Positions 3,628 to 42,134 of a DNA stretch of 42,594 nucleotides are shown in pieces (position 1 is the first letter of the stretch; the number at the start of each line of letters is the position of its first letter). The translations under genes were made by a program, and so were the position numbers. The notes under the pieces were generated by a model, which made no database searches, had not been told where the DNA came from, and saw nothing but the letters and a program-made list of their open reading frames with translations. This stretch comes from an uncultured Lachnospiraceae bacterium (GTDB taxonomy: Bacteria; Bacillota; Clostridia; Lachnospirales; Lachnospiraceae): positions 1 through 42,594 of the forward strand of contig CANQTH010000019.1 in assembly GCA_947626795.1 (NCBI GenBank), written 5' to 3'.

Positions 3628-3733
3628 GACAGTTCATCAGGGGGAAGATTCAGACGGGAGGGAATCCGCCTCTGCGGAAGGCAATCGAAAGCGGGCGGAA
3701 GCCGCAGCAGGGAAGCCGCAAGGCGGAACTGTC
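3628..3733 (+). repeat. Structured intergenic repeat, copy A (inside spoIIA operon)
   Basis: Ends are inverted repeats GACAGTTC (3628-3635) and GAACTGTC (3726-3733). The interior shares GGGAGGGAATCCG, GGAAGGCAA and CAGGGAAGCC with copy B. The central stem TCCGCC (3665-3670) / GGCGGA (3694-3699) differs from TCCGGC / GCCGGA of copy B by a compensated pair. A GCC-GCAA-GGC tetraloop hairpin lies at 3715-3724. The element ends 25 bp before the spoIIAB start. Confidence 0.7.
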
Positions 3734-3758
3734 ACGAAGGAATTGCAAGGAGGATCAT

Positions 3759-4190
3759 ATGGAACAATTAAAAAATGAGATGAAGATGGAATTTCAGGCG
3801 TCGTCATCCAACGAAGGATTTGCGCGGGTCGCCGTGGGGGCGTTCGTGGCGGGGCTGAACCCGACGGTGGACGAGCTTGCGGACATCAAGACGGCGGTCA
3901 GCGAAGCGGTGACGAACTGCATCATCCACGGGTATGAGCAGAAGGAAGGCAGCATCTGGATCGAATGCGGCATAGAAGGGAACCGGGTGGAAATCTCGGT
4001 GGTCGATACCGGGAAGGGGATCCGGGACATTCGGCAGGCGCGCGAGCCGTTGTTCACCACGAAACCGGAGCTGGAACGTTCCGGCATGGGTTTTGCGTTT
4101 ATGGAAGCGTTCATGGACGAGGTGGAAGTCGTTTCGGAGCCATGGAAAGGGACGTGCGTCACCATGCGCAAGACCATAGGGGAAGGGTGA
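3759..4190 (+). CDS. spoIIAB: Anti-sigma-F factor / serine kinase SpoIIAB
   Basis: GHKL-fold ATPase of 143 residues that sequesters sigma-F in the predivisional cell and mother cell and phosphorylates SpoIIAA. The ATP site is complete: N-box SEAVTNCIIHGY with E49 and N53, G1 box DTGKGI (83-88), and G2 box ERSGMGF (105-111). ATG 3759 has AAGGAGGATCAT before it. A longer in-frame reading from 3615 would run through the structured repeat and is rejected. The final TGA overlaps the GTG start of sigF in a GTGA arrangement, which couples the levels of anti-sigma factor and sigma factor. Confidence 0.94.
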   Translation: MEQLKNEMKMEFQASSSNEGFARVAVGAFVAGLNPTVDELADIKTAVSEAVTNCIIHGYEQKEGSIWIECGIEGNRVEISVVDTGKGIRDIRQAREPLFTTKPELERSGMGFAFMEAFMDEVEVVSEPWKGTCVTMRKTIGEG

Positions 4191-4945
4191 GGCGGTTGGG
4201 GCCCAATGAAGGCGCGGGCAGGGAGGAACAGGCAAGAGAGCTGCTGCGGCTGGCAAGGGGCGGCGACAGCCGCGCAAGGGACGCCATGGTGCAAAACAAC
4301 ATCGGCCTGGTATGGAGCATTGCACGCAGGTTTGCGGACCGGGGGCATGAGCTTGAGGACTTGTTCCAGGTCGGCAGCATCGGCCTGGTGAAAGCCGTCG
4401 ATAAATTCGACCTGTCCTTTGAGGTAAAATTTTCTACATATGCGGTGCCTTTAATCGCAGGGGAGATCAAGCGGTTTTTGCGGGACGACGGCATGATAAA
4501 AGTCAGTCGCAGCTTGAAGGAGAGCGGGGCGAAGCTGAAAAAGGCAAGGGAAAGCCTGCAGGGCAGGCTTGGACGCGAACCGTCCCTGCAGGAGCTTTCC
4601 GATGAGACCGGGCTTGCGCGGGAAGAGATCGTCATGGCGCTGGAAGCGAACGGGGAAGTGGAATCGATCTACAAGGCGTATCCGCCCGGGGATGGGAATG
4701 AGACTTGCCTGGCGGACCGGCTGCCGCAGGAGACGGACAGCCAGGAGGAGCTTTTGGACCATATGCTGTTAGAACAGCTTTTGGGCGAGCTTGAGGAGAT
4801 GCAGCGGCGCCTGATCGAGCTGCGCTATTTCCAGGACATGACGCAGAGCCAGGTGGCCGAGCGGCTCGGCGTCAGCCAGGTCCAGGTGAGCCGCATGGAA
4901 AAGAAGATCTTGCTCGGGATGCGGGAACGCGTGAAAAAAGCGTGA
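4187..4945 (+). CDS. sigF: RNA polymerase sigma-F factor, forespore
   Basis: Sigma-70-family factor for early forespore transcription, 252 residues from GTG 4187. Region 2 spans about 35-105 (ELEDLFQVGSIGLVKAVDKF), region 3 about 110-160, and region 4 about 198-247 with the helix-turn-helix TQSQVAERLGVSQVQVSRME. The GTG overlaps the spoIIAB stop (GTGA) with GGGGAAGGG just upstream, and gives the normal family length. The open frame extends upstream to 3965 only as an out-of-frame shadow of spoIIAB. Sigma-F and sigma-G are similar, but third position in a spoIIAA-spoIIAB operon identifies sigma-F. Confidence 0.94.
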   Translation: MRRLGPNEGAGREEQARELLRLARGGDSRARDAMVQNNIGLVWSIARRFADRGHELEDLFQVGSIGLVKAVDKFDLSFEVKFSTYAVPLIAGEIKRFLRDDGMIKVSRSLKESGAKLKKARESLQGRLGREPSLQELSDETGLAREEIVMALEANGEVESIYKAYPPGDGNETCLADRLPQETDSQEELLDHMLLEQLLGELEEMQRRLIELRYFQDMTQSQVAERLGVSQVQVSRMEKKILLGMRERVKKA

Positions 4946-4972
4946 ATAAATTTAAAAGAATACGGCATACTA
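4943..4972 (+). promoter_or_regulatory. Sigma-G (or sigma-F) promoter of the spoVA operon
   Basis: TGAATA (4943-4948), a 17-bp spacer, then CATACTA (4966-4972). This matches the textbook Bacillus sigma-G consensus at every position. The -35 overlaps the sigF stop codon. It lies 28 bp before the first gene of the spoVA operon. Sigma-F and sigma-G recognise similar sites, so which one acts is uncertain. Confidence 0.75.
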
Positions 4973-4999
4973 CTTCCAAAGAGAAAAGGAAGTGAGAGC

Positions 5000-5338
5000 A
5001 TGAGATACCGTACAGCATATCGGATATGCCTTCTGGCAGTCGTGATCTTCACCATTGCGGGGGGCATTTTCTATTATACGAGCTATATGAAACGTGAGGC
5101 GCCCGCAGTGGAAGGCACGCTGGTGAGAGAAGAAGGCCGCGCCGCGGATGAACGTCAGGAGTTTGGGGCCGAGGCGCCCGCGGCGGAAGGCACGCTGGTG
5201 AGGAAAGAAGGCCGCGCCGCAGATGAATGTCATGATCTTGGGGCCGAGGCGCCCGCAGTGGAAGGCACGCTGGTGAGAGAAGAGGGGCGAATCGTTCCGT
5301 TCGGAGGTGTGAGATGGCAAGAGACACCGTATATTTGA
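5000..5338 (+). CDS. Small membrane protein with 25-residue tandem repeats, first gene of spoVA operon
   Basis: 112 residues: a membrane helix at about 8-27 (RICLLAVVIFTIAGGIFYY), then tandem repeats of EAPAVEGTLVREEGRAADE type at residues 33-57, 58-82 and 83-98, then a short tail IVPFGGVRWQETPYI. The start has AAAGGAAGTGAGAGC before it, and the 3' end overlaps spoVAA by 25 bp. It sits directly behind the sigma-G-type promoter, so it is probably made in the forespore. The repeats look like a recent 75-bp DNA expansion in what would otherwise be a protein of about 60 residues. The hydrophilic part may lie outside the membrane. Function is not recognised. Confidence 0.65.
   Translation: MRYRTAYRICLLAVVIFTIAGGIFYYTSYMKREAPAVEGTLVREEGRAADERQEFGAEAPAAEGTLVRKEGRAADECHDLGAEAPAVEGTLVREEGRIVPFGGVRWQETPYI
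5096..5293 (+). repeat. Tandem 75-bp coding repeat (2.6 copies)
   Basis: Units start at 5096, 5171 and 5246 with GAGGCGCCCGC. The unit length is a multiple of three, so the frame is kept; the third copy is partial. The copies differ at only a few bases. Confidence 0.85.
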
Positions 5339-5958
5339 AGATCGGGCGGAACGTCCTGGTGCATACGCCCGCGGTGACGTTAAAAGACATTGCGAAAATG
5401 ACGTCCACGGACAGCGCGTTGGTGGATCGGCTGAAAACCCTGAAGGTGCATACGTTCCATGCGCCCAGGGGCGGAAGCCGGAACCGAAAGCAGGAGCAGG
5501 TATTTTCCGTCCTGAAGATCATTGAGCTGATCGGGCGGGAATGCCCGGGGGTTGAGGTTCAGAATATCGGAGAGCCGGATTTTATCATAGAATATGAGCC
5601 GAAGCCGGAAGAAAAGTGGATCCAATATGGGAAAACGGCGGTTTTGTGCGTGCTGGTATTCTTTGGCTCGGCTTTTACGATCATGACGTTCAACAACGAC
5701 GTGGGCGTGGGCGAAGTGTTCCGGGATTTTTACCGGCAGGTGATGGGGACGGAATCCGACGGCTTTACCGCGTTGGAGGTCTGCTATTCCATCGGCCTGT
5801 TTGTCGGGATCATGGTCTTTTTCAACCACATTGGCGCGAAGAAAGTCACGCATGACTTGACGCCGCTCCAGGTGGAGATGCGCACGTATGAGAAAGATTC
5901 GGATTCCGCCTTTATCGAGAATTGCGAGAGAAAAGGGAGCGGCAGCGATGTGGATTAA
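5314..5958 (+). CDS. spoVAA: Stage V sporulation protein AA
   Basis: 214 residues, the usual SpoVAA length. The N-terminal soluble part (about 1-100) begins VYLKIGRNVLVHTPAVTLKDIA. Two membrane helices follow at about 107-126 and 155-173. SpoVA proteins form the inner-membrane channel that takes dipicolinic acid into the forespore and releases it at germination; SpoVAA is an accessory subunit. ATG 5314 lies inside the end of the preceding small gene, with CGGAGGTG upstream. Its 3' end overlaps spoVAB by 11 bp. Confidence 0.9.
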   Translation: MARDTVYLKIGRNVLVHTPAVTLKDIAKMTSTDSALVDRLKTLKVHTFHAPRGGSRNRKQEQVFSVLKIIELIGRECPGVEVQNIGEPDFIIEYEPKPEEKWIQYGKTAVLCVLVFFGSAFTIMTFNNDVGVGEVFRDFYRQVMGTESDGFTALEVCYSIGLFVGIMVFFNHIGAKKVTHDLTPLQVEMRTYEKDSDSAFIENCERKGSGSDVD

Positions 5959-6373: not shown

Positions 6374-6419
6374 GGGCCGCTTTGCGCGGCTGCCAGAAAA
6401 GAGAAAGAGAGGGATTGCC

Positions 6420-6899: not shown

Positions 6900-7003
6900 G
6901 AAGCGGAGGGAGCGGATGGCCGGGGAACAGCTTGGCCCGGCTTGGCGCAAGGCCCGCAAAGGAACGAAGATAGAGGAACGTCGCGGCATTAAGGAGGGAT
7001 AGC

Positions 7004-7216: not shown

Positions 7217-7246
7217 AGGATAGGAAGCGCAATGGTATGATACCAT
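7213..7246 (+). promoter_or_regulatory. Promoter of the MATE gene with palindromic operator
   Basis: TTGAAG (7213-7218), a 17-bp spacer and TATGAT (7236-7241) form a sigma-A promoter overlapping the end of the small upstream gene. The -10 is centred in a perfect 15-bp palindrome, ATGGTATGATACCAT (7232-7246), as expected for a repressor site. No regulator gene is adjacent. Confidence 0.5.
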
Positions 7247-7250
7247 AGGA

Positions 7251-7350
7251 ATATGTAAATTTTGCCGGGAGGGAATCCGGCTCTTTGCCGAAGGCAAACT
7301 TGAAATGAGCCGGATTCCGTAACAGGGAAGCCGGAAGGCTGACCAGTTAC
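7251..7350 (+). repeat. Structured intergenic repeat, copy B (MATE leader)
   Basis: It contains ATGTAAATTTTGCC, a perfect 12-bp stem GGAATCCGGCTC (7272-7283) / GAGCCGGATTCC (7307-7318), an inner TTGCC-GAA-GGCAA hairpin (7286-7298), and an AGCC-GGAA-GGCT tetraloop hairpin near 7329-7340. It ends GGCTGACCAGTTAC (7337-7350). With the promoter at 7213, it would fill most of the 5' leader of the MATE mRNA and end 29 nt before the start codon. Confidence 0.75.
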
Positions 7351-7379
7351 AATTTTCGTAAGACGGGAAGGGTGGCATT

Positions 7380-15197: not shown

Positions 15198-16049
15198 ATG
15201 GTAAGGATCATAGCGGATAGCACTTGCGATCTGCCGGAACAATTGCTGCGCGAATATGAGATCGCGACGGTTCCGCAGCATATTGTTTTAGGGGAGAATG
15301 AGTATCAGGACTGGATCGGGATTTCCCCGGAGGAGATCTTCCGGTGGTCGGACGAGAACAAGACGACCCCGAAAACGTCCGGGGTGAACTTGGAGGACGC
15401 GATGGCGATGATGGGGCCGATCGCCGCGGCCGGGGATGAGATGGCCATCTTCACGATTTCCGGAAAGATGTCAACGACTGCCAACGTGTTCCGCATGGCG
15501 GCGGAGGAGCTGGGGATCAGTGAGAAAGCTGCGGTCGTGGATTCTGGAAGCCTTTCCACGGGGAACGGGCTTTTGGCGATCGAGGCGGCGATCATGGCGC
15601 GGGAAGGGAAGCGGCTGGATGAGATAGCGGAGCGGATGGAACGTCTAAGGCCGCTCGTCCGCGCGAGCTTTATCGTGGACACGCTGGAATATCTGCATCG
15701 CGGCGGCAGATGCAGCGGCGTGGCCGCGCTTGCGGGAGGCATATTGAAATTGCATCCGAAGATCGTCGTAAAGGACGGGGCGATGGAGGCGGATAAGAAA
15801 TACCGCGGGAAATTGGAGAATGTGATCCTCGATTATGTGAGGGATCTGGAAGGCGACTGGAAGGCTGCGGCTTCGGACCGGGTATTTATCACGCATTCCG
15901 GCTGCCGGAGGGAGATCGTGGATGCGGTCTACGGCTGCCTGAAGGAGTCCGGCTGCTTCCGGGAGATCTGGGAGGCAAGGACGGGCGGCGTGACGTCCTC
16001 CCATTGCGGGCCGGGGACGCTGGGCGTGATGTATCTTTTGAAGGAGTGA
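15198..16049 (+). CDS. DegV family fatty-acid-binding protein
   Basis: 283 residues of the DegV/FakB family, which bind a fatty acid and in FakB present it to a fatty-acid kinase. Typical parts are MVRIIADSTCDLPEQLLREY at the start, KTTPKTSGVN near residue 60, the phosphate-site-like TISGKMSTTANV, and STGNGLLAIEAA. ATG 15198 is preferred over ATG 15189 because AAAGGAGG ends 9 bp before it and abuts the earlier ATG. It follows hisA by 15 bp and probably shares its mRNA. No kinase gene is adjacent, so the partner is unknown. Confidence 0.9.
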   Translation: MVRIIADSTCDLPEQLLREYEIATVPQHIVLGENEYQDWIGISPEEIFRWSDENKTTPKTSGVNLEDAMAMMGPIAAAGDEMAIFTISGKMSTTANVFRMAAEELGISEKAAVVDSGSLSTGNGLLAIEAAIMAREGKRLDEIAERMERLRPLVRASFIVDTLEYLHRGGRCSGVAALAGGILKLHPKIVVKDGAMEADKKYRGKLENVILDYVRDLEGDWKAAASDRVFITHSGCRREIVDAVYGCLKESGCFREIWEARTGGVTSSHCGPGTLGVMYLLKE

Positions 16050-16126
16050 GGGAACTAGAAAAAATGCATGAATGTTTTGAAGTTGCTAAGTTGCTGAAGT
16101 TAAGGAAAGAGAAGGAGAGACACAGG

Positions 16127-19100
16127 ATGAAAAAGAAAAGGTTATTGGGCTTAGGGCTGGCATTTGCGCTGGCAGTTTCCACAATCCCGGCGGGAGGCGT
16201 GAAGGCGGCGCAGGCAGAAAGCACGCAGGGCGCGGAAGAAGAGCAGTGGGAGGATGCAGGAACGCAGCGGAAGGCAGAGCAAGAAAAAGGATCAGAGAAG
16301 GAAACGGGGCTTGCTCTTTTGGCAGGGAGGATGGAAGAGGATCTGATAAGTGCGGATGGGGATTACCAGTACAGGGAAAATGAAGATGGGACAATTTCCA
16401 TTACCTGCTATATAGGAAATAAAAGTGATATTGTAATTCCGGAGGAGATTGATGGGAAAAAAGTAACGAGGATAGAAGAGGCATTTGATGAAGCGCAGCA
16501 TGCGGAAAGGATAGAGATCCCGGAAAGCGTGAGAGAGATAATAGATGGTACGTTCCACGGTTATGGCTGCGGTGGATTAGAAGAGATTGTGGTAGCAGAA
16601 GGAAATAAAAATTATAGCTCGCAAGATGGTATTTTATATGACAATGGAAAAAAGGAATTGCTCTGTTGCCCCATGGACAAAAGGGGCGAGGTCATGATTC
16701 CAGAAAGTGTGGAAAAAATAGGAGATCACGCATTTGAGAGATGCGCTTTGAAAGAAATAGAAATTCCAGAGAATGTGCTGGAAATAGGGGAAAGGGCATT
16801 TGAGGACAGCGATAGGCTGGCGCATGTGAAGATTCAGGGGAAAGTGAGGGTTTTAGGAAATGATGCATTTAACGCGTGCTTTAGCTTGAAAAGCATAGAA
16901 CTTCCGGAAAGCATGATTGAAATAGGAGAAGGAGCATTTTACGATTGCTACGGCTTGGAAGAGATAGAGCTTCCGGAGAATGTGGAGAAGATCGGAGACT
17001 TGGCATTTTATGGCTGCAGCAGCCTTTTGCATATTGAAATTCCGAAGGGCGTGACAGAGATAGGAAATCGAACATTTGGGGAGTGCAGTAATTTGGAGAG
17101 CATAGGGCTTTCACGCAATATATCGGAGATAGGATATCAGGCGTTTTGGGCATGCTCCAGCTTGACAAGCGTTGAGATCCCGGAAAGTTTGAAAGAAATC
17201 GGGAAATTGGCATTTGAATCTTGTTCCAGCTTGACGAGTATAGAAATCCCAGGGGGAGTAACGGAGATTGGTGAAAGAGCATTTTATAGATGCACAAGCC
17301 TTGCAAATGTGAAGCTGGCGGAAGGCGTGACGTCCATTGGAACATTGGCATTTCGTCACTGCACAAGCCTTGAAGAGATAGAAATCCCGGCAAGCGTGAC
17401 GTTTATGGGGAAAAATGCGTTGCCAAGCCACAAAAATGTGATCGCGGTCGTCAGCAAGGAAAGCCAGGCGGAGACGTATGCCGTTGAAAACACGATAAGA
17501 TACCGCTATGTCGGGGAATCCTTCATTCATGGCCCGGGCAGGGTGGAAACCCCGGACGATGGCAGGGAGGGGATTTCCAGCGTGGACTTTGCAGGGGACT
17601 GCGCCGTTGGCGGGAGACAGGTCTTTTTCAACGGGATTGATTCCATCCGCGTAAGAGTAACCTATGGAGACGGGAGCAGCGAGGATCTGCGGGATGGGGA
17701 TACGACAAGATATGGGGAGGATGTTTGGATCGACCTAAGCTATGGGAAAATAGAAGGGGAGCTGAAATACCAGGATGTGGAGGCAGAGGCCCAGATCGGG
17801 AAGAAAGAGTATTCCTTGGGGGAGGCTGACGTATGGGATCTCAAGGGGGAAGTGTTGGAATTGACGGAAGGAGGGACAGGCCTTGAAGTGAGCCAGAAAG
17901 AAGGCGAGACGAGATATTTTATCGCGACGTGCAGGGATGGCGGGAAGTATGCCCTGCGGTACGAGAACGATGATAAGGATGCGCGGTTGGAGGCTTCCCT
18001 GTATGGCGGGCAGGATGGGTACTACGACGAGGGATATGAGGTTAAGCCATTCAACGGATTTACGGGAAGCAGCGAGTACAGTGCTTACCATGAGGCCAAT
18101 GTGCCGATGGAGCTGGAAGCGGGCGCGTATGCCGTCATTGCCCTGGATCTGCAGAACGTAATGGGGGAAGGGGCGTATCGGCTGTATTTTGGCAAGGAGC
18201 CGAAGGTCACAGGCATACAGGTGAGAAATGACAGCTATGTCGTGCAGGCAGGCGGGTACAACTGGTGGGGGCTGGATGGATTCGCATTTGAAGTGGAGTA
18301 CAGCGATGGGAGCGTGCAGCATCTTCATGGGCCGCGGGGGCATTTTGCATTCTCGCATCCAGAATTGACAGACCCGTATATGCCGTATGATGACTATGGG
18401 AATTATTTTGTCTTTCAATTGAAAGATGAGAGCCAGGCGGAGAGGTTTTATGATTCCGCCGCGGGAGATTATCCGGTGACGATCACGGTAAGCGACGGGC
18501 AGGTGTTTGAAGATGTGCTGAAGATACAGGGGACGACGCCGGGCGGAAGCGAGGCAGGAAGTACGGAAAAAGGATATACGTATGAGAAAAAGGAAGATGG
18601 GACAGTAACGATTACAGGATACAGCGGAAGTGAGACGGAATTAGAGATTCCTGGGGAAATTGCGGGAAAGAGGGTAACAGGCATAGGGGCATATGCATTT
18701 GAATGGGGCGGCATTACGAGCGTGGCCATCCCGAACGGAGTGACGAGCATAGGGGAAGGGGCATTTTATAGTTGCGCCAGCCTTGTAAGCGCAAAGATCC
18801 CAGGGAGTGTGGATCGTATAGGGAATAGCGCATTTGAAGAGTGCAGCAGCCTTACGGAAGTGGAAATGCCAGAAGGCGTGTCGCATATTGGAAATCGGGC
18901 GTTTTATTGGTGCATTAGCTTGGAACGCATTTCTATCCCGGAGAGCGTGGAGAGCATAGGGGAGGAGGCGTTTTATTGTTGCGGCGGCCTTACCGATGTA
19001 GAGATTGGGGGAAACGTGACAAGCATAGGGGATTGGGCGTTTGAAAGCTGCAGGAATTTGGAAAATGTGTCTATCCCAGGGAGTGTGGAAACTATAGGGG

Positions 19101-21548: not shown

Positions 21549-21592
21549 TGGAACAGGAGGCGCTGCAAAGAGGCAGGCGGTTGGCTGATAAT

Positions 21593-21713
21593 ATATGTAA
21601 AACGGGTTGGAATATCAATACTTAGCCAAGAGGGGATTTATCATTGCCGAAGGTAATCTGGAATGGGCGGATCGCGTAATAGGGAAGCGGGATAGATGAA
21701 CTGCCGCGAAGAA
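21593..21713 (+). repeat. Structured intergenic repeat, copy G (degenerate)
   Basis: It shares ATATGTAAA, TTGCCGAAGGTAA (the hairpin kept by a wobble), GCGTAATAGGGAAGC and ATGAACTG with copies B and E in the same order, but the stems are eroded. It lies upstream of the restriction-modification island promoter, so it may mark the island boundary. Confidence 0.45.
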
Positions 21714-26686: not shown

Positions 26687-26767
26687 GAACTGTGCAACAG
26701 TTCAGTCCGTAAGAATGTGTAAATTTTGCCAGGTGGAAATCTGGCTCTTTGCCGAAGGCAAACTTTC
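26687..26767 (+). repeat. Structured intergenic repeat, copy C (3'-truncated)
   Basis: It begins with GAACTGT-GCA-ACAGTTC (26687-26703), then AGTCCGTAAGAATGTGTAAATTTTGCC as in copy E (split by a line here only in wording), a GCCAG/CTGGC stem where copy B has GCCGG/CCGGC, and TTTGCCGAAGGCAAAC. The 3' half is missing. It lies between dapF and dapL. Confidence 0.7.
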
Positions 26768-26821
26768 ATGTTGCTAATGTAAGCGGCGTATTCATGCGCC
26801 GGATGAGAAAAGGAGAGAGAG

Positions 26822-28769: not shown

Positions 28770-29594
28770 ATGGCGAAAAAGAATTTTTATGCGGTAAGAA
28801 AAGGAAAAGAGCCAGGCATTTTTGAAACTTGGGAGGCGTGCAGGGCGTCTGTCGGCGGCTATCCGGGGGCGGACTACAAAGGCTTCCAGACGCTGGAAGA
28901 GGCGCGGGCCTACCTTGCGGCCGGGGAAGAAAGCCCGGCTGCAAGCGGGAAAACCCAGCCGCAAGGCGTCGGAAGTCAGGCAGAAAGCGGAAAAATCCAG
29001 CCGCAAGGCGTCGGAACCCGGGCGGCAAGCGGAAAAATCCAGCCGCAAGGCAGCGGAACCCGGGCGGCAAGCGGAAAAACCCAGCCGCAAGGCGTCGGAA
29101 CCCGGGCGGCAAGCGGAAAAATCCAGCCGCCAGACCAGATGATCGCTTACGTGGACGGCAGCTTTGACGAGAAGATAGGAAAATATTCTTTCGGATGCGT
29201 GATGCTTTTGCCGGACGGGGAGATCGTGCGGGAATCCGGCAGCGGGAACAACCCGGAATCCGCGGCTTTAAGGAACGTTACGGGAGAGATGTTAGGCGCG
29301 ATGTTCGCCGTGAAATGGGGCTGCGTCAACGGCTATCCGGCGATCCGGCTCTGCTACGACTATATGGGGATCGAGATGTGGGCGACCGGGGGCTGGAAGG
29401 CGAAGAACAGCCTGACCAGGAAATACGCGGCGTTCATGCGGGAACACAGGAAATGGATCGCGGTGGAATTTCGCAAGATCGCGGCGCATACCGGGGACAA
29501 ATATAACGAAGAGGCGGACAAGCTGGCGAAGGCGGCGCTGCTGGAAGGCAGCGGCATCCCGAAGATCCGGAAAAAAGACGTTGGACTTGTATAA
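28770..29594 (+). CDS. Viroplasmin-domain ribonuclease H
   Basis: 274 residues. An N-terminal viroplasmin domain (about 1-52: KNFYAVRKGKEPGIFETWEACRA split by WEAC) binds RNA-DNA hybrids. A linker of five 14-residue repeats (about 57-120, AASGKIQPQGVGTR) follows. Residues 124-274 are an RNase HI domain with the four acidic residues Asp129 (YVDGSF), Glu173 (TGEML), Asp197 (CYDYMG) and Asp250 (EEADKLAK). It should cleave RNA in RNA-DNA hybrids in replication and repair. AAGGAGGGACC precedes ATG 28770. It is divergent from the response regulator with a 56-bp gap. Confidence 0.9.
   Translation: MAKKNFYAVRKGKEPGIFETWEACRASVGGYPGADYKGFQTLEEARAYLAAGEESPAASGKTQPQGVGSQAESGKIQPQGVGTRAASGKIQPQGSGTRAASGKTQPQGVGTRAASGKIQPPDQMIAYVDGSFDEKIGKYSFGCVMLLPDGEIVRESGSGNNPESAALRNVTGEMLGAMFAVKWGCVNGYPAIRLCYDYMGIEMWATGGWKAKNSLTRKYAAFMREHRKWIAVEFRKIAAHTGDKYNEEADKLAKAALLEGSGIPKIRKKDVGLV
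28940..29130 (+). repeat. 42-bp tandem coding repeat in the RNase H linker
   Basis: The marker CCAGCCGC recurs at 28955, 28997, 29039, 29081 and 29123, exactly 42 bp apart. The copies differ at a few bases. The array encodes only the linker, so copy number could change without disturbing either domain. Confidence 0.9.
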
Positions 29595-29617: not shown

Positions 29618-29653
29618 GTAACAGTTCAGGGCAGCCGTCAGACTGGGCTGTCA
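29618..29653 (+). repeat. Structured intergenic repeat, copy D (short form)
   Basis: GTAACAGTTCAG (29618-29629) followed by CAGCC and GGCTG arms and ending CTGTCAC. It looks like the two ends of the element joined after loss of the interior. It lies 55 bp before the sbcD-like gene. Confidence 0.55.
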
Positions 29654-29708
29654 CGAAAATCGTGGTTATGCGGCAGGCGCGGAAGATGCCGGAGGTAAGG
29701 AGAGGAAA

Positions 29709-30752: not shown

Positions 30753-32380
30753 AGATTACGGAAATACGGATAAAAAATTTTGGGAAATTACATAATATCA
30801 ATATCCGGCCTCTTCCAGGGCTGAATGTGATATACGGAGAAAACGAGACGGGCAAGTCCACCATGCAGCGGTTTATCGCCGGGATGCTCTTTGGGGCGGG
30901 AGGCCAAAAAGAGTCGGGCGGGCAGTACGCGCCCTGGGACGGCAGCGAGCCATACGCCGGGGAGATCGGTTTTATGTCCGGCGGGAAGGAATTTTCCCTG
31001 GAGCGCGATTTTTCCGGGGAGGGGGACGCGCTGAGGCTGCGTGACGGGAGCGGGAAGGAACTCCCGGCTTCCCAGGAGGAAGTGGAGAAGCTCTTCGGCG
31101 GCATGACGAAAGAGACGTACGAGAATACATACTGCATCAGCCAGGCGGCTGTCGAGACGAAAAAAGAGTTCGCGGGTGTCTTAAAGAATTACTTTGTCAA
31201 CGCGGCGTACGGCGGCGAGAAGAAAGTGGACGTGTCGGGCGCGCAGGAACGCCTGCGGGAAGGCCGCGAGAACGCGCAGCAGCGTTACAAGGAGAAAGTC
31301 GCGGCGCGCAAGGAAGAGGAAGGGCGCCTTTTGATGAAAGAGAAGCTCTTGGAAAAGGACGCGGAGCAGATCCGCAAGCAGCGGCAGGAGGGGATCCCGG
31401 CCCTGCTGCGCAGGAAGCAGGAGACGGTCTGGCCGGAGCGCGAGACGAACCAGATGGCGGAATACCTGAGGGACATACGCCAGCAGAATGAGCAGTTGGA
31501 GTACAAGGTAAAGCGCGGCGCCTTCCTGGCGGTCACGGCGGCCGCGTTCTTCGCGTGCTGCTGGAATGCGGCGGCGCACCATCTGTTCCGCAGCCCCACG
31601 CTGGGCTGGGCGGCGTTAGAGGCGCTCCTGCTTTTGTGGCTCGCGTTCGGCGTCGCCGGGACGGTCATCTGGAACAAAGAGGCGCGGCGGCTCAAGCAGC
31701 TCCGCAAAGAGCAGGCCGAGGAAAAAGAGGCGATGATCCGTTTCGCGTCCATAGAAAAAGAGCGTCACAAGCTGCGGGAACGCCAGGACAAGCAGGCGCG
31801 GCAGGAAGCGTTGGAGGAAATGCTGAACACGCAGCTTTTGGAGAAGCAGGCGGAGCTGACGAACCTGCGGGAAGAACTGGCCGAGTGCCGCAGGCCCGCG
31901 GAGGACGAGAAAGAAGCCGCGCGCCAGGTGAAGGCATACGACTTAGCGTACGAGGAGATCGGGAAGCTTTCCGACGATATCTGCAAGGAAGCCGACCCGG
32001 CGCTCGCTCAGGAGATGAGCCGGATCTTTTCCGAGCTGACGAATGGGAAATACCAGAAGATCGGGCTGGATGAGAAAATGGGGCTGGTGGCATGGGAAGG
32101 AGACCGCAGGCTGCGCCCGTGGCAGCTAAGCCGCGGGACGATGGAGCAGATGTACGTCTCGCTGCGCCTGGGCGCGGGCGGGATTTTTACCGGGGAAGAC
32201 CCCATGCCGATCATTCTGGACGAGGTGTTCGCGGCCTTTGATGAAAAGCGTTTGGAATCGACGTTAAGATGGCTGGGGAAACAGCCCGGGCAGATCTTTT
32301 TGTTCACCTGCCGGAAACGGGAGATGGAGATCTTAGAACGGACCGGGATCCCCTACGGGAAGATCATGTTGAGCAGATAG
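30749..32380 (+). CDS. Short SbcC/YhaN-like ATPase with membrane segment
   Basis: 543 residues, about half the size of SbcC or YhaN. The Walker A GENETGKST is at 30-38. A coiled coil runs from about 145 to 250. Two closely spaced hydrophobic stretches (about 258-305: AFLAVTAAAFFACCWNAA, then ALEALLLLWLAFGVAGTVI) should span the membrane. A second coiled coil returns to the C-terminal ABC half with the signature-like LSRGTMEQMY and the Walker B PIILDEVFAAFDE. So the usual long coiled-coil arm is replaced by a short one tethered to the membrane. It is coupled to the SbcD-like gene by a 4-bp overlap and presumably forms its ATPase subunit. Confidence 0.8.
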   Translation: MKITEIRIKNFGKLHNINIRPLPGLNVIYGENETGKSTMQRFIAGMLFGAGGQKESGGQYAPWDGSEPYAGEIGFMSGGKEFSLERDFSGEGDALRLRDGSGKELPASQEEVEKLFGGMTKETYENTYCISQAAVETKKEFAGVLKNYFVNAAYGGEKKVDVSGAQERLREGRENAQQRYKEKVAARKEEEGRLLMKEKLLEKDAEQIRKQRQEGIPALLRRKQETVWPERETNQMAEYLRDIRQQNEQLEYKVKRGAFLAVTAAAFFACCWNAAAHHLFRSPTLGWAALEALLLLWLAFGVAGTVIWNKEARRLKQLRKEQAEEKEAMIRFASIEKERHKLRERQDKQARQEALEEMLNTQLLEKQAELTNLREELAECRRPAEDEKEAARQVKAYDLAYEEIGKLSDDICKEADPALAQEMSRIFSELTNGKYQKIGLDEKMGLVAWEGDRRLRPWQLSRGTMEQMYVSLRLGAGGIFTGEDPMPIILDEVFAAFDEKRLESTLRWLGKQPGQIFLFTCRKREMEILERTGIPYGKIMLSR

Positions 32381-32383
32381 GGC

Positions 32384-32530
32384 GTAACAGTTCAGCCCGG
32401 AACTTTGCACTTGCTGCAAAGTCCGTAAGAACGTGTAAATTTTGCTGAGTGGGAATCCGGCTCTCTGCCGAAGGCAAACTTTAAATGAGTCGGATTCCGT
32501 ATCAGGGCAGCCGCAAGGCTGAACTGTTAC
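32384..32530 (+). repeat. Structured intergenic repeat, copy E (complete)
   Basis: 147 bp with perfect 14-bp terminal inverted repeats GTAACAGTTCAGCC (32384-32397) and GGCTGAACTGTTAC (32517-32530). Inside are ACTTTGCA-CTTGC-TGCAAAGT (32402-32422), GGAATCCGGCTC (32452-32463) paired with GAGTCGGATTCC (32487-32498, one wobble), an inner TGCC-GAA-GGCA hairpin, and AGCC-GCAA-GGCT (32509-32520), which competes with the terminal pairing. It ends 30 bp before the PBP start. Confidence 0.85.
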
Positions 32531-32560
32531 TTACGATAGGGCGCGGGGACAGGAAGGGTT

Positions 32561-34981
32561 ATGGGCAAAAAGAAGAAGAAAAAGAAGAAATACCGCGTAT
32601 TTTGGTTTTTCGCGAAACTGCAGATACTTTTGATGGTTCTGGTCGCGGCGGCGCTGGGCTGGTATTTTTACGGCGGATATGCGAAAAAAGTGAGCGCGAT
32701 GCAAAAAGAGGCCAAGGAGTTTGTGAAAAATTCCAGCGACGCGACGTTCCGCTCCGTGCAGACCAGCCTGGCGTACGACGCGGAGGGGACGCTGATCTCC
32801 ACGATCATTGGGGAGAAGGACGTGTATTATCTGGAATACGACGAGATCCCGGCGTACTTCCCGGCGGCCATGGTCAGCATCGAGGACAAGAAGTTTTACA
32901 GCCACAACGGGATCGACTTAAAGGCGATCCTGCGCGCGGCCAAGGCGATGATCGAGAACGGGGAAGTGACGCAGGGCGGCAGCACGATCACGCAGCAGCT
33001 TGCGCGCGGCGTGTTCCTGACCCAGGAGCGCACCTGGGAACGCAAGATCGAGGAAATGTTCCTTGCTGTGGAGCTGGAAAAAGTATACAGCAAGAACAAG
33101 ATCATGGAGTTTTACCTGAACAACATCTATTTTGGGAACGGGTATTACGGGATCCAGGCGGCGAGCCGGGGATATTTTAACCGGGACGTGAAGGAGCTTT
33201 CCCTGTCCCAGATCGCGTATTTGTGCGCGATCCCCAACAACCCGACGCTGTACGACCCGGTGACGAACCCGGAGAATACCAGGAAGCGGCGCGACCGGAT
33301 CTTGAAACAGATGCTGGACGACGGGAAGATCAATCTGGAGACGTACGAGCAGGCGCGGCTGGAAGCAATCGCGCTGAACCGCCCGCCGAGGGCCAAGAAC
33401 GATTATGTGGAGACGTACACCTACTACTGCGCCATCCGCGCGCTGATGCGGCAGGCGGGCTTCGTGTTCCGGACGGAATTTTCCACGGAGGAGGAGCGCG
33501 CGCAGTATGAGGCGGATTACGAGGAGATGTACGGGGAGTACCAAAAGAAGCTCTATACGGAAGGGTACCGGATCTACACGTCCGTGGACTTAAAGATGCA
33601 GCAGGCCCTGCAGGACGCCGTCGACTCCAGCCTGGCCGGGTTTACGGAGCAGAACGAGGAGGGCGTGTACAAGCTGCAGAGTTCCGCCGTGTGCATTGAC
33701 AACCACAGCGGGTACGTCAAGGCGATCGTAGGCGGCAGGAACCAGGACCTGCCGGGCTATACGCTGAACCGGGCTTACCAGAGCTTCCGCCAGCCGGGCA
33801 GCGCCATCAAGCCGCTCCTGGTATATGTCCCCGCGCTGGAACAGGGGTATACGCCGGATTCAGCCGTGCAGGACGTCCGGACGGAAGGCGGCCCTGTGAA
33901 CGCGGACGGGTACTATGAGGGAGAGATCACGCTGCGCCGCGCGGTGGAGGCATCGAAAAATACGGTCGCGTGGAACCTGCTCGAAGAGCTGACCCCGGCG
34001 GCGGGGCTGTCTTACTTAAAGGCGATGCAGTTTTCGAAGCTGAGCCCGCAGGACGAGCGGCTGCCGATCGCGCTCGGCGGGTTCACGACAGGCGTGTCCG
34101 CGCTGGAGATGACGTCCGGCTATGCGGCGATCGAGAACGACGGGAAATACCGCGAGCCGACCTGCATCGTGCGGATCACGGACGCGGACGGCAACACGGT
34201 TCTGGAGACGCAGGAAGAGGAAACGCAGGTTTATAAGGAGAACGCGGCGCGCATGATGACGGATATGCTGGTCTCCGTCATAGCGGAAGGCACGGGGCGC
34301 GGGCTTGCATTTGGCGATATGCCCTGCGCGGGCAAGACCGGGACGACGAATGACAATAAGGACGGATGGTTCGTCGGGTACAGCAGCTATTATACGACAG
34401 GAGTCTGGGTTGGCTACGATATGCCGCAGGAACTCCCGGGACTGTCCGGATCCAGTTACCCCGGGAACATCTGGAAAACGTTCATGGAGCAGATCCACCA
34501 GGGCCTGGAGCCTGCGCCGTTCCTGCCTTATATCGAGGAAAACGCGCCCGCTCCGGAAGATGGCGGGGATGCGCCGGAAGAGCCTGCGCCGGAGGTTCAG
34601 CCGGAAGAGCCTGCGCCGGAAGCCCAGCCGCCGGAGGACGGCGCGCAGCAGCCGGAAGCCCAGCCGCCGGAAGACAGCGCGCAGCCGCCGGAAGACAGCG
34701 CACAGCAGCCGGAAGACAGCGCGCAGCCGCCGGAAGACGGCGCGCAGCAGCCGGAAGCTCAGCAGCCGGAAGACGGCGCGCAGGGAACGGACGGCGGCCA
34801 GAATGGCCAGGATAACGGAGGAAACGGCCAGGACGGCGGCAGCCAGAATAACGGAAACGGCGGCGGCCAGAACGACGGGAATGGCGGCGGCCAGGACAAT
34901 GGAGAAAATGGCCAGGATGGCGGCCAGGACAACGGGAATGACGGCGCGCCGGACAGTTTTGGAGGGATACGGTCACGATGA
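32561..34981 (+). CDS. Class A penicillin-binding protein (transglycosylase-transpeptidase)
   Basis: 806 residues. A lysine-rich start and one membrane helix (about 14-38) anchor it; the rest is outside. The glycosyltransferase domain (GT51) has EDKKFYSHNGID with Glu108 and QGGSTITQQLARG (138-150). The transpeptidase domain has SAIK (Ser414-Lys417), SKN (465-467) and KTG (592-594). It polymerises and cross-links peptidoglycan. From about residue 668 the tail is low complexity: first PPEDSAQ/QPEDGAQ repeats, then a Gly-Asn-Gln-Asp-rich segment, probably a flexible wall-spanning stretch. AGGAAGGGTT precedes the ATG. The stop overlaps the ROK kinase start (ATGA). Confidence 0.94.
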   Translation: MGKKKKKKKKYRVFWFFAKLQILLMVLVAAALGWYFYGGYAKKVSAMQKEAKEFVKNSSDATFRSVQTSLAYDAEGTLISTIIGEKDVYYLEYDEIPAYFPAAMVSIEDKKFYSHNGIDLKAILRAAKAMIENGEVTQGGSTITQQLARGVFLTQERTWERKIEEMFLAVELEKVYSKNKIMEFYLNNIYFGNGYYGIQAASRGYFNRDVKELSLSQIAYLCAIPNNPTLYDPVTNPENTRKRRDRILKQMLDDGKINLETYEQARLEAIALNRPPRAKNDYVETYTYYCAIRALMRQAGFVFRTEFSTEEERAQYEADYEEMYGEYQKKLYTEGYRIYTSVDLKMQQALQDAVDSSLAGFTEQNEEGVYKLQSSAVCIDNHSGYVKAIVGGRNQDLPGYTLNRAYQSFRQPGSAIKPLLVYVPALEQGYTPDSAVQDVRTEGGPVNADGYYEGEITLRRAVEASKNTVAWNLLEELTPAAGLSYLKAMQFSKLSPQDERLPIALGGFTTGVSALEMTSGYAAIENDGKYREPTCIVRITDADGNTVLETQEEETQVYKENAARMMTDMLVSVIAEGTGRGLAFGDMPCAGKTGTTNDNKDGWFVGYSSYYTTGVWVGYDMPQELPGLSGSSYPGNIWKTFMEQIHQGLEPAPFLPYIEENAPAPEDGGDAPEEPAPEVQPEEPAPEAQPPEDGAQQPEAQPPEDSAQPPEDSAQQPEDSAQPPEDGAQQPEAQQPEDGAQGTDGGQNGQDNGGNGQDGGSQNNGNGGGQNDGNGGGQDNGENGQDGGQDNGNDGAPDSFGGIRSR
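34620..34785 (+). repeat. Proline-glutamate repeat region in the PBP tail
   Basis: Imperfect 21-bp units encoding (P/Q)PEDSAQ or (P/Q)PEDGAQ, interrupted by longer units with PEAQ. The frame is kept throughout. Confidence 0.75.
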
Positions 34982-36317: not shown

Positions 36318-37430
36318 ATGTTAAAGAAGAAATTAGCAACATTACTCGCTGTGACCATGGTTGCAGCATCCATCGTTGGCTGCGGCGGCAGCAACGGGAA
36401 CTCTGCAGAGACGAACAACGCTACGGACACGACGGACGAGTCTGAATCTCCGGCAGCAGATGATTCCGAATCTCCGGCAGCGGATGATTCCGAATCTCCG
36501 GCAGCGGATGATTCCGAATCTCCGGCAGATGACTCGGCATCGAGCGGCGGGACCATCAAAGTCGGCATCATCAACAATGACCCGAGCGAATCTGGTTATC
36601 GTACCGCGAACGACGCTGACCTGAAGGCAACCTTCTCCGCAGAGAACGGCTATGACGCATCTTTCGCGTACAGCATGAAGAATGACGAGCAGATCAACGC
36701 AGCTCAGAAGTTCATCCAGGACGGTGTTGATTACCTTCTGATCTCTGCAGCAGACACATCCGGTTGGGATACTGTTCTGCAGGATGCAAAGGACAACGGC
36801 ATCCACGTTATCTTGTTCGACCGTACGATCGACGCAAGCGAAGACCTTTATGACGCTTCCATCGTTTCCGACATGGCTAAGGAAGGCCAGATGGCAGTTG
36901 ACTGGCTGACAGAGCAGGGTCTTGACACGTACAACATCATCCACATCCAGGGCGTTATGGGCTCCGCAGCTCAGGTTGGCCGTACAGGCGCGCTTCAGGA
37001 CGCGGTTGACGCAAATGACAACTGGAACATCGTAGTACAGCAGACAGCAGAGTGGAACGCAGAGAAGGCACAGCAGATCGTTCAGTCCGTAATCGACAGC
37101 GGCGAAGAGTTCAATGTAATATATGCAGAGAACGACGATATGGCTAAGGGCGCTGTTGCGGCTCTTGACGCAGCGAACATCTCCCACGGCGTTGGCAAAG
37201 ACGTGATCATCATGGGCTTCGATACCAACAAATGGGCATTGGAAGAGCTGCTGGCAGGCAACTGGAACTATGATGGCCAGTGCAACCCGTTCCAGTCTTC
37301 TTACATCTCCAACGTAATCCAGGAGCTTGAGGCTGGCAACACACTTTCCGAGAAGACCATCATCATGGATGAGAAGGGCTTCGATGCTGAGACCATCACG
37401 CAGGAAGACGTTGACACCTACGGCATCTAA
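36318..37430 (+). CDS. Sugar-binding lipoprotein of YtfQ (galactofuranose) type
   Basis: 370 residues. The signal peptide ends in IVGC with the lipidated Cys22. An acidic linker of ESPAADDS repeats runs to about residue 74. The periplasmic-binding-protein domain (family 4, like RbsB, MglB and YtfQ) starts KVGIINNDPSESGYR. It delivers sugar to the permease pair outside the membrane. The order binding protein, double ATPase, two different permeases matches YtfQ-YtfR-YtfT-YjfF, hence the galactofuranose suggestion; ribose or galactose cannot be excluded. Codons ending in T (GTT, GCT, CGT) are much more frequent than in neighbours, consistent with high expression. A hairpin attenuator follows. 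Confidence 0.85.
   Translation: MLKKKLATLLAVTMVAASIVGCGGSNGNSAETNNATDTTDESESPAADDSESPAADDSESPAADDSESPADDSASSGGTIKVGIINNDPSESGYRTANDADLKATFSAENGYDASFAYSMKNDEQINAAQKFIQDGVDYLLISAADTSGWDTVLQDAKDNGIHVILFDRTIDASEDLYDASIVSDMAKEGQMAVDWLTEQGLDTYNIIHIQGVMGSAAQVGRTGALQDAVDANDNWNIVVQQTAEWNAEKAQQIVQSVIDSGEEFNVIYAENDDMAKGAVAALDAANISHGVGKDVIIMGFDTNKWALEELLAGNWNYDGQCNPFQSSYISNVIQELEAGNTLSEKTIIMDEKGFDAETITQEDVDTYGI
36441..36536 (+). repeat. 24-bp tandem coding repeat in the binding-protein linker
   Basis: GAATCTCCGGCAG recurs at 36444, 36468, 36492 and 36516, exactly 24 bp apart, encoding DSESPAAD. It lies between the lipid anchor and the binding domain. Confidence 0.9.
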
Positions 37431-37523: not shown

Positions 37524-37580
37524 ATGGTAGGAACTTGCGCTAGCAATTCTTATAAAAATTTTCAGGAGGTGAACTCAGGG

Positions 37581-40169: not shown

Positions 40170-40170
40170 A

Positions 40171-41214
40171 ATGTCAAAAAATAATTCAACATCAAACGGT
40201 TCGTTTCTGGACAAGGTGAAGAACCTTACCGATACGAGTTTACTCCTTACGATCACAATTGTGATATTTGTCCTGATGTACCTGGGGGCTATTATCTTCC
40301 AGGGCGGCGGGTTTTTGAAAGTGCAGACGTTCTTTAACATCTTGAACGCGAATGCCGCGCTGATCATTTTGTCCTGCGGCTTGAGCCTTGTCATGATCAT
40401 TGGCGGGATCGATATCTCCGTCGGCGGCGTGACGGCCCTGGTCAGCATGAGCTGCGCGGTATATCTGGATAACATGGGCGGCAACGTATATGTGTCCATG
40501 CTGATCGCACTCGCCATCGGCGTTGCGTTTGGCGCATTCCAGGGCGCGCTGGTCGCTTTCCTGGATATCCAGCCCTTTATCGTTACATTGGCGGGTATGT
40601 TCTTTGCGCGAGGCATGACGACGATCGTAAACTCCGACCCGTTCAACGTTGCGAACGAGGGATTCAACGAATTGAAGATGACGCGTATCTACACGCCGTT
40701 TGGCTCTACGAATGCGAAGGGCGTATATGTCCCGGCTTATGTTGAGCTTGGCGTTGTCGTTGCGCTGGTTATCGTGATCCTGCTGTTCTGCCTGCTCCGC
40801 TGGACGAAGCTTGGCCGCTCTTTCTATGCGGTCGGCGGGAACAAGGAAAGCGCGTTGATGCTTGGTATCAACGTAAAGAAGACGAAATTCATCGCGCATC
40901 TGATGTGCGGGACGCTGGCAGGGATCGGCGGTTTCGTATACTTCCTCCATGTAGGGTCCGGTTCTCCGTCCCATGCGACTGGCGCGGAAATGGACGCGAT
41001 CGCGTCTTCCATCATCGGCGGCACGATGCTGACGGGTGGCGTTGGTAATATCATCGGCACGTTCTTCGGCGTATTGTCCTTGAGTACGATCCAGAACATC
41101 GTTGCTTCTGCCGGTTTGGATGAAGCTTGGTGGACCGGGATTACCAGGGCGGTTATGCTCTGTCTCTTCCTGATCATCCAGAGCGTGGTTATGGCGCGCA
41201 AGCATAAGAAATAA
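40171..41214 (+). CDS. Sugar ABC transporter permease (YjfF-like)
   Basis: 347 residues with about nine or ten membrane helices. It contains SCGLSLVMIIGGIDISVGGV, the family core motif with the usual IGGIDISVG wording, and IIGGTMLTGGVGN near the end. It completes the four-gene importer. AAGGAGGTAGCGTAGA precedes the ATG. A strong terminator 31 bp after the stop ends the operon. Confidence 0.88.
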   Translation: MSKNNSTSNGSFLDKVKNLTDTSLLLTITIVIFVLMYLGAIIFQGGGFLKVQTFFNILNANAALIILSCGLSLVMIIGGIDISVGGVTALVSMSCAVYLDNMGGNVYVSMLIALAIGVAFGAFQGALVAFLDIQPFIVTLAGMFFARGMTTIVNSDPFNVANEGFNELKMTRIYTPFGSTNAKGVYVPAYVELGVVVALVIVILLFCLLRWTKLGRSFYAVGGNKESALMLGINVKKTKFIAHLMCGTLAGIGGFVYFLHVGSGSPSHATGAEMDAIASSIIGGTMLTGGVGNIIGTFFGVLSLSTIQNIVASAGLDEAWWTGITRAVMLCLFLIIQSVVMARKHKK

Positions 41215-41245
41215 GTTGTATTTGGGCGTCAAGAGAGATTATATA

Positions 41246-41276
41246 GGGCTGCCGCGTATGCGGTAGCCCTTTTTTA
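41246..41276 (+). terminator. Terminator of the sugar importer operon
   Basis: GGGCTGCCGC (41246-41255) and GCGGTAGCCC (41260-41269) pair at all ten positions (one wobble) around a GTAT loop, followed by six Ts. Confidence 0.9.
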
Positions 41277-41305
41277 ATAAAAAAAATAAAAATTAACACA
41301 AAATA

Positions 41306-41334
41306 TTGACAAAGGAAGACTTGGGTGGTACAAT
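41306..41334 (+). promoter_or_regulatory. Consensus sigma-A promoter of the candidate small RNA
   Basis: Perfect TTGACA (41306-41311), 17-bp spacer, TACAAT (41329-41334). It follows the importer terminator, and no gene follows on this strand for 870 bp. Confidence 0.8.
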
Positions 41335-41340
41335 ATCTAG

Positions 41341-41425
41341 GAAAGTTAAGTATATCAGCTCTTTTCCCCTAAAAAATATGTTGGTATGCTGGCTGGCCTC
41401 GGCATGATTCATGCCGGGGCTTTTT
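41341..41425 (+). ncRNA. Candidate small non-coding RNA (about 85 nt)
   Basis: A transcript from the promoter at 41306 would start near 41341 and end at a strong terminator: CCTCGGCATGA with TCATGCCGGGG (41397-41419), then five Ts. Between start and terminator there are a U/C-rich stretch (TCTTTTCCCC), an A-rich stretch and TGGTATGCTGGCTGG, and no reasonable reading frame with a ribosome site. It matches no RNA family that I recognise (not 6S, tmRNA, SRP RNA or a riboswitch). A trans-acting regulator is possible. Confidence 0.6.
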
Positions 41426-41590
41426 CTATGCAGAAAAAATCATGCGCGTGAAGGAGACGGGGCCAGGATCGGATGCGTGGCGGCCGCTTTTTCTGTGGCA
41501 GGAAAGATCATGCGCGCGAAGGAGACGGGGCCGGGATCGGATGCGTGGCGGCCGTTTTTTTGTGCAGAGAAGATCGTGCGCGCGAAGGGC
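41420..41590 (+). repeat. 66-68-bp tandem repeat after the small RNA
   Basis: CATGCGCG-type starts occur at 41441, 41509 and 41575 (CGTGCGCG in the last). Each unit includes a T-run, a GCAGARAA-like stretch and GAAGGAGACGGGGCC; the third is partial. The T-run and following bases of the small-RNA terminator look like the beginning of the first unit. No gene is evident. Confidence 0.8.
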
Positions 41591-41646
41591 CGCCCCTGCG
41601 CATCCCCGGAGGAACTGCAGCAAGCGGAAAAGATAGCTGGCGTTTG

Positions 41647-42072
41647 TTATAATAGATCTATGTTCCATACGATCAGGAGTAAATTCTTTAGGAGGAAGTT
41701 CAAGACTAAAAGGATGAGGGCGATCCAGAGATAGGCGTCCCGATATTTCATGCCGATCTTCAGGCGATGTCCGGAAAGGCGTTCAATGGATTGGCTGATC
41801 AGGAACCAGCTCCCGAGCGTCCCGACATAAAAGACGAGCGGATGGTAGCGGAGCGAGGCGAGAAAGTCGCCCCGCAGGAATGCGCAGACGGCCCGCGTCC
41901 CGCCGCAGCCCGGGCAGTAAAGCCCGAAGAGTTGGTTCACGACGCAGGGGAGCAGGATTTTTTCGAGCGGGATCGGGAAGATGCGGAGGATAAGGCGTGC
42001 AAGAAGAAGGAGGGCGAGCAGTCCCCATCCGATATAAAAGAATACGTTTTCTTCTTTTTCGTGCCGTGCCAT
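41647..42072 (-). CDS. DUF2752 small membrane protein
   Basis: 141 residues with three or four membrane helices. CPGCGGTRAV in the middle is the defining DUF2752 motif (two cysteines and a TR pair), followed by a short loop and YHPLVFYVG. Function of the family is not known to me. The start at 42072 (MARHEKEENVFF) has GGAGGGACGCTG before it; the longer open frame to 42162 would begin in the promoter. It is divergent from a CmpB-like gene with overlapping promoters. The T-rich stretch at its end lacks an obvious hairpin. Confidence 0.82.
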   Translation of the reverse strand: MARHEKEENVFFYIGWGLLALLLLARLILRIFPIPLEKILLPCVVNQLFGLYCPGCGGTRAVCAFLRGDFLASLRYHPLVFYVGTLGSWFLISQSIERLSGHRLKIGMKYRDAYLWIALILLVLNFLLKNLLLIVWNIDLL

Positions 42073-42110
42073 CAGCGTCCCTCCATGTTGCCGTGATCTA
42101 TTCTTATAAG

Positions 42111-42134
42111 GTAACAGTTCGGCCCAGGACTTTA
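42111..42134 (+). repeat. Structured intergenic repeat, copy F (end fragment)
   Basis: GTAACAGTTCGGCCCAGGAC, then TTTA, aligns with the 5' end of copy E (GTAACAGTTCAGCCCGGAAC). Only this end is present. It falls in the 5' leader of the minus-strand DUF2752 gene. Confidence 0.6.

Follow-up and report, generated by a model that had tools for sequence, protein, structure and literature searches.

The element and its copies in the window

The window analyzed here is a stretch of 42,594 nt from an uncultured Lachnospiraceae bacterium, in which an initial annotation, made from the letters of the sequence, had described seven related copies (A to G) of a structured intergenic element. Our analysis indicates that this element is very probably a miniature inverted-repeat transposable element (MITE), that is, a non-coding mobile DNA element of about 147 nt that forms hairpins and duplicates 8 bp of its target. 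We make this assignment because of the inverted ends, the 8-bp duplication, the copy number, and the empty sites of the element. The family has ends of its own and is newly found, within an already known kind of mobile element.

Copy E is full length (Table 1), and its 14-bp terminal inverted repeats are perfect, as the initial annotation had stated. The compensatory stem differences that it had quoted between copies B and A and between copies B and C are likewise present in the sequence. An extra TTAC (32531-32534) separates the right end of copy E from its right GATAGGGC. A covariance model (CM) built from 32 copies, all from outside the window so that copy E was not in the training set, recovered five of the seven copies (A, B, C, E, and G), and the remaining two, D and F, are end fragments only. 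Copy D is a short hairpin built from two ends. Copy F, for which we detected no match to the model up to E=10, carries the exact left-end pattern, which has 164 matches genome-wide at one mismatch or fewer versus 1 for a reversed control.

Table 1. Copies of the element in the window and parts of copy E
Feature	Position	Strand	Evidence
Copy E, full-length, 147 nt	32384..32530	+	CM E=3.1e-38
Left terminal inverted repeat of E, GTAACAGTTCAGCC	32384..32397	+	perfect complement of 32517-32530
Right terminal inverted repeat of E, GGCTGAACTGTTAC	32517..32530	+	14/14 complementary to left end
Left target-site duplication of E, GATAGGGC	32376..32383	+	read in sequence; family has 8-bp duplications
Right target-site duplication of E, GATAGGGC	32535..32542	+	read in sequence
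HP1 of E, loop CTTGC	32400..32424	+	paired in 98.4% of cells, 32 copies; loop census
HP2 of E, 12-bp stem	32452..32498	+	covarying pairs
HP3 of E, inside HP2, GAA triloop	32464-32478	+	covarying pairs
HP4 of E, right end folded on internal imperfect third copy of end	32499..32530	+	alignment and tree-based covariation
Copy B, left end and HP1 lost or replaced	7243..7350	+	86% identity to E over 108 nt; CM 7.5e-21 over 7224-7350
Copy C, right part lost	26687..26782	+	CM 5.5e-8; 89% identity over 63 nt
Copy G, strongly decayed	21573..21707	+	CM 5.3e-5
Copy A, decayed, internal deletion, between STAS and HATPase_c_2 genes	3626..3735	+	CM 0.0019; Pfam of neighbors
Copy D, end-only fragment or mini hairpin	29618..29654	+	CM only 0.79; blastn of ends
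Copy F, left end only	42111..42133	+	exact end-pattern match; blastn E=0.017; no CM match

From left to right, the element is composed of an end, hairpin HP1, a linker, HP2 enclosing HP3, and HP4. The family ends are 14-bp inverted repeats with the consensus GTWACWRTTCAnnC, and the terminal inverted repeat (TIR) helix is paired in 90.8% across the 32 copies. HP1 has the consensus GGACTTTGCA-YYTRC-TGCAAAGTCC. Among 114 parsed copies, loop positions 1 and 4 held C-G in 70, T-A in 40, and T-G in the remaining 4; C-A, which the search pattern permitted, occurred in none. In distant members (L065, L066, L124, and L133), which were compared using end pairs chosen partly by duplication score, the HP1 stem is wholly or partly replaced with pairing kept. 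The ends form subfamilies (GTAACAG, GTTACAG, GTTACTG, and GTAACTA), and the subfamily changes coincide at the left end, the internal arm, and the right end in many copies. We also observed reduced forms of 31 bp (L015, with a perfect 8-bp duplication), 59 bp, and 72 bp, the shortest of which may have arisen by deletion between direct copies of the end. The HP3 region of the element is interrupted at three loci (L113, L154, and L167) by insertion of a different palindromic repeat (GGGCGCTAAACGTCC...). Tandem arrays of the element were found as well, and one locus on contig C1 of the window's genome, near 17.9 kb (L031), holds three truncated copies in an array with a 59-nt period.

Near-full-length places detected by blastn with copy E number at least 42 in its own genome (G000; 2.89 Mb), copy E included, which is a lower bound with 40 of 253 first-look candidates scored; the places other than E are 88-93% identical to it. 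With limited scoring, blastn matched copy E in at least 13 of the 61 genomes searched (its own included), belonging to 2 of 33 genera. The exact HP1 pattern matched at least 108 stretches in a species-level genome collection (GTDB), a sample in which HP1 conservation arises partly by selection because the stretches were chosen by that pattern. Among the 80 titles listed for these matches, 77 named Lachnospiraceae, Clostridia, or a clostridial genus, and 3 read only “Bacterium.” The same element and flank occur in a same-genus genome (G011, L067) and in a record titled “uncultured Lachnospiraceae bacterium” (L128). No viral contig matched the exact pattern, and blastn gave no match in plasmids and phages.

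Target duplications, empty sites, and the enzyme that moves the ends

We examined 180 end pairs that were 28-400 nt apart and taken regardless of their flanks. The flanking octamers agreed at 7 or 8 of 8 positions in 78 of these pairs versus 0.75 expected per draw when right flanks were shuffled. Exact duplications of 8 bp were present in 50 of 119 copies, with no more than three copies at any other length from 4 to 13 bp. These 119 copies derive from 121 extracted, with two false parses (L037 and L221) removed and one copy (L085) turned; a second extraction, used for the gene context below, yielded 145 elements with L037, L220, L221, and wrong-orientation parses excluded, and both extractions were limited to elements of 110-165 nt. 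When pairs 22-6000 nt apart with a duplication of at least 7/8 were counted, 88 of 105 fell in the 130-149 nt bins, in a sample whose loci were mostly fetched by similarity to copy E.

Two clean empty sites and one diverged empty site, identified in a screen of 87 joined-flank queries, show insertion. In the window's own genome, a copy on contig C134 (L002) interrupts a unit of a tandem repeat with an 89-nt period, and the neighboring units are intact across the site at 94-97% identity. A second copy (L133) lies within a repeat of which other copies in the same assembly (L154 and L106) are empty at 98-99% identity, and a third (L085) has a diverged empty relative at 81% identity. These empty sites, together with the 8-bp duplications and the many dispersed copies, strongly support the suggestion in the initial annotation of a MITE-like mobile element.

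Copy E, at 147 nt, has no room for a transposase gene. A transposase acting in trans would recognize the 14- to 16-bp ends (GTWACWRTTCAnnC) and would move any interior held between two inverted ends, with staggered cuts 8 bp apart leaving the 8-bp direct repeats. We infer that the ends alone suffice for movement and that the moving enzyme is of the DDE kind and either lost or rare. The same ends would then serve to move several interiors, the 147-nt family in the window's genome being one example. Unrelated interiors between the same ends, with an 8-bp duplication, were found at 165 bp (L215, genome G031), 220 bp (L113), 313 bp (L231 and L232), and 1,823 bp (L230). Further end pairs were seen at 164-176 bp (G031 and G028) and at 133 bp (G028), and those G031 interiors that were examined are unrelated to that of the element.

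A scan for more widely spaced end pairs (0.4-6 kb) that had a duplication of at least 7/8, which covered 288 loci and the window (1.39 Mb) and was repeated on 336 loci (1.48 Mb, 141 long pairs), returned one element, the 1,823-bp unit (L230, the same as L270). Exact-end positions listed for G011, G013, G031, G028, Eubacterium plexicaudatum, and G000 were also inspected by eye for long pairs. Those taken as sequence (L210 in G011, which contains a 252-aa open reading frame [ORF], and L333-L336 in G028) had no 8-bp duplication at the long pairs. None of the IS66, DDE_Tnp_1, and Transposase_mut loci fetched had MITE ends on both sides plus a duplication. Neighboring ORFs of truncated copies (20 chosen, 70 copies listed) included no transposase by Pfam, with 2 of the 20 lacking any family.

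The 1,823-bp element, found in E. plexicaudatum, carries an intact 450-aa IS4-family transposase gene (Pfam DDE_Tnp_1, 1.1e-20; NCBIfam IS4, 8.5e-41) and shares its outer 14 bp with the MITE ends. We consider it unlikely that this element is the autonomous parent with the MITEs as its deletion products, even though its inverted ends are perfect and extended, a perfect 8-bp duplication (AATTTCTG) surrounds it, and two 313-bp derivatives have the same ends and duplications of 8/8 and 7/8. Relatives of its transposase make 10-bp duplications and reside in elements starting (C/G)CAATGTCATT (L275, L276, and L281), short CAATG-ended elements inside MITE ends have 10-bp duplications that are perfect (L150 and L167) or 9/10 (L106 and L154), and no homologue is present in copy-rich G000, G011, G017, G025, G028, and G031. 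Because the enzyme determines how long the duplication is, the IS4 element looks more like a passenger, one that targets MITE ends and sits in a GTTAC-ended unit, than like the mover of that unit. A MITE derived from IS4 (CAATG) elements was also rejected, the 147-nt element having neither CAATGTCATT ends nor a 10-bp duplication. IS4-family insertion sequences (ISs), or short elements with their ends (CAATGTCATT, 9- to 10-bp duplication), occur in or just inside the element ends at five loci (L106, L150, L154, L167, and L271), and one side of such an insertion was seen at L126 and L128.

Derivation from IS66, whose ends begin GTAA with 8-bp duplications, is very unlikely: IS66 copies of relatives have GTAAGCG ends (L087, L089, and L094), with a perfect 8-bp duplication at L087, but the sequence after GTAA differs from that of the element, several MITE subfamilies begin GTTAC, and Pfam IS66 gave no match in the window's own genome or in G005, G010, and G011, with matches in the other 9 of 12 genomes.

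Among bacterial MITEs, ERIC, RUP, BOX, and Correia elements are intergenic snap-back repeats. Like these, the element is short and gene-free, with inverted ends, a target duplication, many intergenic copies, and strong hairpin potential. Unlike them, it has its own GTWACWRTTCAnnC ends with an 8-bp duplication, several interiors share its one type of end, and a parent IS was not found in our searches. So far, it occurs in records titled Lachnospiraceae or clostridial relatives. The element also resembles REP/REPIN elements with their RAYT in consisting of many short palindromes between genes. REP/REPIN elements are not known to have a target duplication, and the clear 8-bp duplications and GTWAC ends of our element rule out this identity on the features tested. 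The REP tags are GTAG or CGTC in the excerpts of the two reports consulted (PMC3733652 and PMC3116915). The apparent homing of an IS on MITE ends resembles the IS targeting of REP palindromes described in an excerpt of another report (PMC1525189); the IS4-family IS with CAATGTCATT ends is found inside or joined to MITE ends, and it has different ends from the MITE and 10-bp duplications when alone. None of the papers listed in our searches of open-licence PMC literature describes the family, and its 14-base end gave no paper there as a text string.

Covariation of the stems and RNA function

A first alignment (A1) gave only 15 RNAalifold pairs because its middle was misaligned, and it was replaced by a second (A2) of a narrower set of 32 copies. 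Of the 42 pairs in the latter, those with changes on both sides numbered 13 when the ends were taken as paired and 16 when HP4 was, slid registers gave 1-8 pairs with both-side changes, and the observed covariation score was reached by 0 of 500 shuffles. Against a tree-based null, for which we used our own script in the manner of R-scape, p<0.05 was obtained in 17 of 56 pairs versus 2 of 112 re-paired control columns and p<0.01 in 8 of 56 versus 1 of 112, with the tested pairs not all independent because the ends and HP4 share one arm. The 14 end pairs reached p<0.05 in 5 cases and p<0.01 in none, and the HP1 pairs were nearly invariant in this alignment (0 of 10 significant). The covarying stems proposed in the initial annotation are thus borne out, and the absence of covariation beyond phylogeny, which it had named as a refuting outcome, was not observed. 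The internal hairpins are genuine, and their arms change together.

The palindrome may extrude as single-stranded DNA or may fold as RNA when read through. Hairpin-templated correction, together with recombination among the three copies of the end, would keep its arms matched, whether or not the fold is also under some selection. Such templated correction or recombination in a palindrome would be the most economical reason for the covariation, and no RNA function is required by the data.

Selection on a one-strand RNA should give more G-T than A-C intermediates. By parsimony, changes from Watson-Crick pairs to G-T or to A-C numbered 36:40 over all helices, with some events counted twice due to the arm shared by the ends and HP4. 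Per helix, these ratios were 9:20 for the ends, 7:4 for HP1, 9:6 for HP2, 3:0 for HP3, and 8:10 for HP4. The inner hairpins HP1 to HP3 together gave 19:10, which is in the RNA direction and too small to decide. Raw G-T:A-C counts in the 119 copies, in which related copies are counted repeatedly, were 39:35 for the ends and 41:23 for HP1, HP3, and HP4. The inner hairpins therefore hold at most a weak hint of a bias in the RNA direction. Folding z-scores of copy E were similar for RNA (-6.2 for the plus strand and -6.75 for the minus strand) and DNA (-6.5 and -6.0, respectively).

The loops were parsed by script in the same 119 copies. A GNA triloop was present in 80 copies at HP3 and in 63 at HP4, versus a GNRA tetraloop closed by C-G in 2 and 22, respectively. 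C-G-closed GNA triloops are very stable in DNA. The GNRA loop noted near the 3' end is indeed present in copies A, B, and E, but the family mostly has a GNA triloop at this position. The proposal that one strand of copy B acts like a switch did not hold up, as the alternative stem has all five Watson-Crick pairs in only 1 of the 32 aligned copies and is not conserved. Likewise, selection on RNA structure and not only on a DNA palindrome is unsupported by the event ratio over all helices, the similar folding of both strands of copy E, and the orientation of neighboring genes described below. We conclude that the structure is conserved, but the data do not demonstrate a function as RNA.

Gene context was obtained with a simple codon-usage gene caller, which placed 121 elements between two called genes, with 7 others overlapping a call. 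Relative to the element, the neighboring genes were oriented ++ in 53 cases, -- in 34, -+ in 30, and +- in 4. Elements in gaps between convergent genes (4 of 121) were fewer than the 19.2 expected from intergenic bases of the same loci (p=1.7e-5) or the 17.4 expected from the number of intergenic regions (p=0.00013). The divergent excess by bases was not significant (30 versus 23.8, p=0.17), and the difference between ++ and -- had a p value of 0.053. In the window, copy A (region 3224-4945) has on one side a STAS gene and on the other an HATPase_c_2 gene followed by a sigma-70-type gene. We take the first two to be spoIIAA-like and spoIIAB-like, respectively, which would apparently place copy A inside a spoIIA-type sporulation operon. 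Elsewhere in the window, positions 16004-21496 encode a protein of 1,830 aa that has an fn3 domain in addition to leucine-rich repeats of the BspA type, and short tandem repeats lie within long ORFs at 34586-34798 (21-nt period), 28889-29140 (42 nt), and 36433-36528 (24 nt).

These data bear on an alternative, which we regard as improbable, in which the element would chiefly function as a leader or processing RNA with a defined structure, spread by transposition. Once in an mRNA, it would fold and affect how the next gene is translated or terminated or how stable its message is, and selection on that RNA would keep the stems. The covariation beyond the tree-based null and above all shuffles, the depletion between convergent genes, the weak same-direction excess, the G-T excess in the inner hairpins by events and in the raw counts of HP1, HP3, and HP4, and the matching of the TIR-HP1 part alone in five genomes are each consistent with a leader RNA. 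However, G-T events are not in excess across all helices, both strands of copy E fold alike, and GNA triloops are more frequent than GNRA loops. Furthermore, the genes neighboring truncated copies, like those in the window, come from a wide range of families, and the interiors of sister families that share the ends are unrelated. Although the element shares covarying stems with structured RNA families in Rfam, no Rfam family reached gathering score in the window, and the best weak match, at copy E, had an E value of 9.2.

Weight of the evidence and implications

Several observations weigh against our reading of the element as a MITE. No autonomous partner was found, and we detected no Pfam match to IS66, DDE_Tnp_1, or Transposase_mut in the window's own genome despite dozens of MITE copies, in a draft of 144 contigs that is 96% complete and from which an IS could be missing. 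When relatives were compared for empty sites, as suggested by the initial annotation, there were no clean empty sites among nine loci queried between G028 and G017. All eight G028 loci queried were also occupied in G017, with three judged across contig ends, and for the single G017 locus queried (L086) only part of the left flank was found in G028. Three loci (L255, L259, and L260) had no good duplication. In addition, the conservation of HP1 seems high for an interior that is merely carried along, and all listed blastn matches to copy E in five genomes (G011, G031, G005, G022, and G023) fall within query positions 1-52. The opposite pattern occurs in G010 and for most matches in G013, which fall in query positions 69-149, with another HP1 stem in the copies of these two genomes. 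Finally, the depletion between convergent genes is not explained by neutrality alone and is the opposite of what simple avoidance of harm predicts. It could reflect target choice, for example, of negatively supercoiled DNA, or retention upstream of genes.

The analysis gives a name to an intergenic repeat that is absent from Rfam although the window's genome and its relatives hold it in abundance. It also carries a caution that covariation within a repeat does not by itself prove a functional RNA. Two testable questions are raised: which enzyme moves elements with such ends and what makes copies so rare between convergent genes. One doubtful but conceivable reading is that an undescribed transposase, acting on GTWACWRTTCA ends with 8-bp duplications, serves several folded mini-element families across Lachnospiraceae, and that HP1 with its covarying loop pair, whether in extruded DNA or in mRNA, is a recognition element through which copies are directed to, or retained on, the 5' sides of genes. 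If this were true, Lachnospiraceae would have a transposable set of upstream regulatory hairpins.

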